Source of the DNA: Candidatus Azambacteria bacterium
GTDB taxonomy: Bacteria; Patescibacteriota; Minisyncoccia; GWC2-36-17; WO2-46-25
Direction: 5' to 3'
DNA length: 42,309 nucleotides
Assembly (NCBI GenBank): GCA_016234725.1
Contig: JACRAK010000008.1
Location: 1 to 42,309, forward strand
Shown piece by piece: positions 1 through 1,971 of this stretch; within the stretch, counting starts at the first letter, position 1; each line of letters starts with the position of its first letter. The notes under the pieces are model-generated. The model was not told the origin of the DNA. It saw only the letters and a program-made list of their open reading frames with translations, and ran no database searches. The position numbers were made by a program, and so were the translations under genes.

Positions 1-313
1 AAGCAATTTTGCTTTGGTCTATGAGATAGATGATCTGCCCGCCATCCACCGAGTTTCTGGCAAGACGATCCGGGTGCCATGAAATTATCCCGACGGGTTC
101 TCGGCTTTCGTGGATTTTCTCAACCATCTCGTTGAAAATTTCTCGCCCGGGCTTCTTTGCGCTTTTCGACTCAATAAATTTTTCTGTGATTTCAAGATTT
201 TCTCGTTTGGCAAATTCCGCCAACTCCGCTAGTTGCGCTTCAATACTCATCACTTGTCGTTCCTCATCTTCAGTTGATTTTCTCGCGTAGAGAAAGTATT
301 TAGGGTTGTTCAT
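1..313 (-). CDS. Serine recombinase / resolvase N-terminal domain (partial, runs off window start)
   Basis: Reverse-strand translation from ATG at 313: MNNPKYFLYARKSTEDEERQVMSIEAQLAELAEFAKRENLEITEKFIESKSAKKPGREIFNEMVEKIHESREPVGIISWHPDRLARNSVDGGQIIYLIDQSKIA. YARKS...QVMSIEAQ...DRLARN is the typical resolvase N-terminal pattern. Absent from the ORF track because it is truncated. Confidence 0.9.
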   Translation of the reverse strand, partial: MNNPKYFLYARKSTEDEERQVMSIEAQLAELAEFAKRENLEITEKFIESKSAKKPGREIFNEMVEKIHESREPVGIISWHPDRLARNSVDGGQIIYLIDQSKIA

Positions 314-1743: not shown

Positions 1744-1768
1744 GGGAAGTTCTCTATAAAAACTTCCC
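1744..1768 (+). other. Stem-loop just upstream of the hammerhead
   Basis: GGGAAGTT(1744-1751)/AACTTCCC(1761-1768). Confidence 0.8.
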
Positions 1769-1769
1769 A

Positions 1770-1820
1770 CTGTTCCTCGGATGTGTATCCGAGCTGATGA
1801 GTCCGAAAGGACGAAAACAG
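1770..1820 (+). ncRNA. Hammerhead ribozyme (type III topology)
   Basis: CUGUU-C|CUCGGAU-GUGU-AUCCGAG-CUGAUGA-GUCC-GAAA-GGAC-GAAAACAG. Stem I 1776-1782/1787-1793; CUGAUGA 1794-1800; stem II 1801-1804/1809-1812; GAAA 1813-1816; stem III 1770-1774/1816-1820; predicted cleavage after C1775 (UUC triplet). Confidence 0.93.
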
Positions 1821-1862
1821 ATAGCACTTTGAGAAAACATAAACGAGAATATCTTCCTATCA

Positions 1863-1971
1863 CTTCGTGGGTAGCATAGTGGATGTCTTTGGAAAAATAA
1901 AAAAGATTTTCAGTATGCTACTCATGTCGAGGAGCCCTTGGTGCGGGGAACGCATCAATTTCACGCTCACG
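1863..1971 (+). ncRNA. Structured leader RNA motif, copy 2 (unassigned)
   Basis: P1 CUUCG(1863-1867)/CGAGG(1928-1932); P2 GGGUAGCAUA(1869-1878)/UAUGCUACUC(1914-1923); conserved block 1917-1971 identical to copy 1, including the P4 hairpin. Confidence 0.8.

Follow-up and report, generated by a model that had tools for sequence, protein, structure and literature searches.

A predicted type III hammerhead ribozyme between a probable pseudoknot and a boxA-like element may divide a two-gene transcript in a Patescibacteria genome

Introduction

Hammerhead ribozymes located between protein-coding genes have been described in prophages. Clustered prophage hammerheads have been proposed to cut transcripts into gene-length mRNAs, and for some of those that lie in tandem between genes, cleavage was seen in vitro and, after cloning, in E. 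coli (Perreault et al. 2011, PMC3088659). In Clostridium cellulolyticum, selective RNA processing and stabilization is a second relevant case, in which intergenic processing sets the expression of operon genes (PMC4423207). A third is the rRNA operon, where boxA follows the promoter and recurs after an internal processing site cut by RNase III. E. coli rRNA operons likewise repeat boxA in the spacer (Berg 1989, cited in PMC10250234).

The locus described here lies in a 42,309-nt stretch of DNA (the window), which is an entire contig of a 923-kb genome of the phylum Patescibacteria/CPR. Like the prophage system, it has a hammerhead between genes. Unlike it, the hammerhead appears to be part of a recurrent composite module, found mostly in Patescibacteria; the sections of PMC3088659 considered mention no adjoining hairpin, pseudoknot, boxA or duplicated leader, and the term terminator does not occur in them. 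A search covering part of the literature returned no report of a hammerhead with an adjoining hairpin, pseudoknot or boxA. Gene-length splitting by hammerheads has already been proposed, and what appears to be new is the conserved cap and boxA neighbours. In contrast to the C. cellulolyticum system, the RNA would process itself in cis, and the product would acquire a complete second set of 5′ leader elements. Compared to the rRNA operon, the boxA arrangement is similar, NusB is present and the genome's own 16S boxA is matched; however, the operon is protein-coding, cutting is predicted to be done by a ribozyme and not by RNase III, and a role in antitermination is suggested by analogy.

Results and Discussion

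Operon organization

The region 755–2440 appears to constitute a two-gene operon, with a single promoter and a single terminator around both genes, and is enclosed by the arms of an inverted repeat:

513–667, + strand: left arm of the flanking inverted repeat, ~155 nt, of which 112 nt are perfect (sequence comparison)
755–783, + strand: promoter TTGACA-17-TATACT with TG before the −10 element (consensus scan, 11/12 matches, sigma-70-like)
1029–1715, + strand: gene 1, a 228-aa orphan protein, GC3 0.91
2007–2375, + strand: gene 2, 122 aa, GC3 0.80
2397–2440, + strand: intrinsic terminator of the operon, −21.8 kcal/mol, z −7.9, with a U-rich tail
2518–2671, − strand: right arm of the flanking inverted repeat (sequence comparison)

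The site at 755–783 is the sole promoter-like site identified by a sigma-70-like consensus scan on the + strand of 600–2800. Within the interval between gene 1 and gene 2, a 291-nt untranslated spacer, the + strand consensus scan detected neither a sigma-70-like promoter nor a terminator-like site.

Both genes are GC-rich (64% for gene 1 and 63% for gene 2), and their GC3 values compare with ~0.5 for the two genes downstream of the operon. Neither could be assigned to a convincing family in Pfam, PHROGs or PADLOC. No relatives of either gene were found in viral contigs, and a search of phage and plasmid records gave no match. Among 54 related genomes, gene 2 was represented by the window's own copy only; distant relatives of gene 2 are located after a hammerhead in loci L122 and L090. 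Structure models have a pLDDT of 45 for gene 1 and 61 for gene 2, the latter with weak matches only.

Hammerhead ribozyme

The spacer contains a ribozyme:

1770–1820, + strand: type III hammerhead, predicted cut between C1775 and C1776 (Rfam score, covariation, covariance model)

Judged by its sequence, this element is a complete type III hammerhead with the core and all stems intact. Stem III is formed by CUGUU (1770–1774) and AACAG (1816–1820), and H17 is C1775. Stem I (CUCGGAU-GUGU-AUCCGAG, 1776–1793) is followed by the core CUGAUGA (1794–1800), stem II (GUCC-GAAA-GGAC, 1801–1812) and GAA (1813–1815). The features of the type are all present, namely a core of the form CUGANGA...GAAA, an NUH triplet, closed stems I and II, and an open stem III. 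The core, three stems, open stem III and UUC cleavage triplet are shared with the type III members of Rfam RF00008; unlike these, the group to which the window copy belongs has a fixed GUCC-RAAA-GGAC stem II and typically a GUGU loop I.

The match to RF00008 (28.6 bits, E 0.0019) falls short of the gathering score of 48.5, at which no hammerhead is reported in the window. Since this threshold misses nearly all clear relatives, the failure reflects the model instead of a defining biochemical feature, and standard Rfam thresholds hide nearly all of these hammerheads. In loci L036, L103, L034, L104, L114, L068 and L126, the covariance model finds more than 20 hammerheads and the Rfam gathering thresholds one. 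With that model, built from 83 sequences including the window copy, the window hammerhead scores 73.8 bits and the runner-up in the window 15.1. In the same 83-sequence set, 98.2% of cells are paired, compared to 68% when shuffled, with a covariation score of 0.80 versus 0.19. Both-sided changes occur in 10 of 16 pairs, and stems I and III covary strongly, the stem II sequence having been fixed by the search pattern. MFE folds omit stem III, which has only 5 bp, and contain a competing CUG/CAG pairing instead. A circular-RNA or retrozyme reading was rejected, as there is one hammerhead and no second copy in cis.

Structured element upstream of the predicted cleavage site

The ribozyme is preceded by another structured element:

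1736–1768, + strand: probable H-type pseudoknot abutting the ribozyme, with S1 at 1736–1739/1752–1755, S2 at 1744–1751/1761–1768 and an A-rich L3 at 1756–1760

Stem S2 is the hairpin GGGAAGUU/AACUUCCC (1744–1751/1761–1768), and AGAG (1736–1739) can pair with CUCU (1752–1755) to form S1; the 1744–1768 hairpin is, thus, probably half of the pseudoknot. The positions given in the sequence-only reading for this hairpin and the predicted cut after C1775 agree with the sequence, whereas its description of the hairpin as a terminator-like 3′ stem-loop does not hold. A terminator at 1744–1768 is ruled out, as the tail, ACUGUUCC, contains no U-tract, and this absence points to a 3′-end cap.

Structured RNA 5′ of the cut recurs in independent genomes far above chance. 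A strong hairpin (score of at least 16) abuts stem III in 56 of 134 hammerheads of the first set, compared to 3.0% of shuffles. A second set of 61 hammerheads with other stem II sequences, obtained with the covariance model and partly from other genomes, played no part in choosing the criteria and, thus, guards against circularity; here, a hairpin abuts the ribozyme in 44/61, compared to 3.1% of shuffles. The H-type geometry is observed in 13 of 28 suitable cases (1.4 expected; 0/1000 shuffles), with a criterion that was picked after seeing the data and with AGAG/CUCU in several of the 13 positives; several cases use other sequences, such as CGCC/GGCG and AGGGU/ACCCU. Only this constrained geometry is enriched, as an unconstrained test of loop-flank pairing across hammerheads gave no enrichment. 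A near copy of the pseudoknot in a Kaiserbacteria genome (L034) has an altered stem 2 and an unchanged CTCTATAAA loop.

An H-type pseudoknot with an A-rich L3 right beside stem III could also be a ligand sensor that tunes the hammerhead, as in a natural aptazyme. The AGAG...CUCUAUAAAA layout is reminiscent of the preQ1-I riboswitch pseudoknot. However, the window has no Rfam riboswitch match, and relatives differ widely in their stem and loop sequences, with no conserved binding pocket apparent. We consider a sensor function very improbable.

boxA elements and parallel leaders

The regions upstream of the two genes contain a parallel series of elements:

792–821, + strand: 5′ hairpin AATTTGAG/CTCAAATT, close to where the primary transcript is predicted to begin (from the sequence)
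832–843, + strand: boxA 1, GCTCTTTGATAA, after the promoter (pattern GC.CTTTGA.AA)
882–928, + strand: leader-1 hairpin GAGTAGCGA...TCGCTACTC (region z −6.7)
922–976, + strand: 55-nt leader block, copy 1, identical to 1917–1971
1824–1835, + strand: boxA-like element 2, GCACTTTGAGAA, after the ribozyme (pattern GC.CTTTGA.AA)
1867–1923, + strand: leader-2 hairpin GGGTAGCAT...ATGCTACTC, with stem bases unlike those of leader 1 (region z −6.1)
1917–1971, + strand: 55-nt leader block, copy 2, 100% identical to copy 1

The 16S leader of this genome bears GCCCTTTGACAA, which shares the boxA pattern with both window copies, and the window elements match the consensus provided by the genome's own rrn boxA. 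On both strands of the 42-kb window, GC.CTTTGA.AA occurs only at 832 and 1824, for a pattern that was derived from the three compared sequences themselves and has a chance expectation of ~0.1 match per window. In boxA 2, the TCTTT core is altered at a single base. NusB is encoded in this genome (E 4.6e-31). Across genomes, 20 of the 62 hammerheads that bear a hairpin have a boxA-like motif in the 45 nt following the ribozyme, where 0.8 would be expected, and the second set has such a motif just after the ribozyme in 14/60 (0.8 expected). Of 87 genes located before a hammerhead, 14 have the motif in their leader, against an expectation of 1.9. The regular expression behind these statistics does not cover boxA 2.

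The elements follow the same order in both leaders, i.e. 5′ hairpin, boxA, GUAGC hairpin, 55-nt block and Shine-Dalgarno sequence, with boxA ~10 nt after the 5′ hairpin in each. The predicted 5′ UTRs are also of similar length (~239 nt for leader 1 from the predicted start, and ~231 nt for leader 2 from the predicted cut). The 55-nt block was found in this genome only in the two leaders. The repetition of the leader 1 order in leader 2 suggests a design for a processed second mRNA.

Leader 2 might instead have been copied from leader 1 as a by-product of duplication or cassette transfer, with the hammerhead a neutral or decaying passenger. The full identity of the 55-nt blocks is in keeping with such an origin, as are the inverted repeat, perfect over 112 nt, that encloses the cassette and the sporadic distribution of the hammerhead (see below). 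However, the GUAGC stems have diverged on both strands and yet remain paired (GCGA/UCGC versus GCAU/AUGC), the ribozyme core and every stem are intact, and selection on the module is indicated by the covariation and by the structured neighbours that recur in many genomes. We judge this origin improbable.

In both leaders, the 55-nt block can be read as MSRSPWCGERINFTLT (1929–2007 in leader 2), which may be due to chance; in leader 2, the terminal TGA of this frame overlaps the ATG of gene 2. A leader ORF is not favored, as it would have no Shine-Dalgarno sequence and would overlap gene 1 out of frame over a long stretch.

Related hammerheads

Scans identified about 200 related hammerheads, mostly in Patescibacteria, plus phages. 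The same subtype, defined by a 7-bp stem I with a GUGU-like loop and a GUCC-RAAA-GGAC stem II, was found by pattern scans in 14 viral contigs and at least 116 bacterial genome stretches, overwhelmingly of Patescibacteria. Of 286 genomes sampled from the phylum, 27 have a match at E ≤1e-4, and one of these has six. As this genome has one hammerhead and eight others of the same order have none, it was probably acquired horizontally. The acquisition appears to be sporadic, and the window hammerhead might be decaying.

The cap-hammerhead-boxA layout recurs in many Patescibacteria genomes, and some phages have a form that lacks boxA. In phages, the hairpin and ribozyme take up almost the whole intergenic gap; for most copies, the distance from the stop codon to the ribozyme is 22–37 nt, and the next start lies ~20 nt after the ribozyme where the downstream gene is cleanly called. 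By rough gene calls, the ribozyme is preceded by a codirectional gene in 106/127 cases and followed by one in 90/127. The downstream neighbour can be an operon partner, a gene with its own promoter or a convergent gene. Since the ribozyme usually follows a codirectional gene and the next neighbour varies, what these loci have in common is 3′-end formation. Hairpin-less hammerheads, many of them from Saccharibacteria, show an enrichment of promoters just downstream (17 versus 6.9 expected), and the hairpin-bearing ones do not (9 versus 7.2 expected).

These data bear on the explanation that the hammerhead only serves to make 3′ ends, for gene 1 as for GC-rich orphan genes generally, and that gene 2 either has its own, unrecognised promoter or is barely expressed. 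The codirectionality counts and the promoters after hairpin-less hammerheads would both be expected under it, as would orphan, GC-rich genes upstream and the frequent housekeeping genes downstream; furthermore, a gene 2 promoter of another sigma type would escape a sigma-70-like consensus. However, no promoter-like site is present between the ribozyme and gene 2 in the window, and the gene 2 leader repeats the order of the gene 1 leader. For this locus, we regard 3′-end formation alone as unlikely. The common role of the related hammerheads is probably to form the 3′ end of the upstream gene, and bicistronic splitting would be the form that it takes here.

Several features of these loci are recorded separately. 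Hammerhead-tailed genes (L024–L139) are mostly GC-rich orphans (median GC excess over the locus of +7.3 points, positive in 90%), and the genes downstream of hammerheads, often housekeeping genes, are only +1.5 points over the locus. The few Pfam matches of upstream genes include Tad4 (2 members), STIV_B116-like and Csx3. In Parcubacteria (L036:2476–6527), about ten hammerheads form a tandem array on one strand within 4 kb; most have an abutting hairpin, and one is followed by boxA. Saccharibacteria-type hammerheads without a hairpin (L064, L101, L111, L134, L105 and L138) share a CTGCTTGTCAT stretch just upstream, and GCACTTTGACAAGCAGACAA is present in some leaders of such loci. In L034, L047 and L082, ACGGAATCRGATCRGG follows the hammerhead and is itself followed by a structured-looking RNA, possibly non-coding.

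Proposed mechanism

We favor, with moderate confidence, a model in which a single transcript is divided by the hammerhead into two mRNAs that have structured ends, with reloading at boxA. The elements, their order and their recurrence are observed, and from them we infer cleavage, protection and reloading. A single transcript would extend from the promoter (755–783) to the terminator (2397–2440) and be cut co-transcriptionally by the hammerhead after C1775. The upstream product would be the gene 1 mRNA, ending with the pseudoknot, a 7-nt tail and a 2′,3′-cyclic phosphate, and its structured 3′ end should impede 3′–5′ exonucleases. According to the discussion in PMC10250234, a terminal 2′,3′-phosphate inhibits RNase PH and perhaps PNPase, and leaves RNase II and RNase R largely unaffected; a structured 3′ end would matter because of these last two enzymes. 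The downstream product would be the gene 2 mRNA, with its 5′-OH directly in the stem I hairpin, followed by boxA, the leader hairpin, the 55-nt block and the Shine-Dalgarno sequence. One promoter would, thus, yield a separate mRNA per gene with equivalent 5′ elements. The second boxA is probably present because the cut strips boxA 1 from the nascent RNA, and NusB/S10 could be reloaded at boxA 2 such that the polymerase crosses the 291-nt untranslated spacer.

The sequence-only reading had proposed bicistronic splitting with structured ends and no obvious separate promoter for gene 2. This proposal fits the single promoter and terminator, the consensus scan of the intergenic interval, the parallel leaders and the recurrent structure 5′ of the cut, and needs to be extended by the two boxA elements that it had missed, one downstream of the promoter and one downstream of the ribozyme. 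Its suggestion that the hammerhead substitutes for both termination and initiation is supported for 3′-end formation; the replacement of initiation would be a special case at this locus.

More tentatively, the cap (pseudoknot or hairpin), hammerhead and boxA could form a horizontally spread module of Patescibacteria, present without boxA in phages. Each cut would free a capped mRNA and boxA would re-arm the polymerase, such that one promoter could give a series of mRNAs, an RNA-only counterpart of rRNA-operon processing. If true, this would give minimal genomes a protein-free route from one promoter to separate mRNAs. A cap 5′ of the cut and a boxA 3′ of it make the role of bacterial hammerheads, a question since 2011, specific enough to test: whether the 3′ product is stabilised by the cap, and whether antitermination is regained through boxA once the RNA has been cut.

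Flanking repeats and other observations

The repeat that flanks the two-gene unit also occurs as inverted pairs in genomes of the same class (L170, L171 and L173), around unrelated cargo of 1.4–2.4 kb. By reading, L170 contains an adenylosuccinate-lyase-like gene and L173 an aldolase-like gene together with an HTH gene, and the cargo of L171 consists of orphans. No transposase was seen inside these three repeat pairs, and the flanking repeat is possibly a transposase-less cassette system. At the contig edge of the window (1–310, minus strand), the N-terminal part of a protein resembles a serine recombinase by eye. In another locus (L142, G000:C5:103880–105429), an ORF that by eye is like an intron homing endonuclease follows a sequence near the 16S 3′ end.
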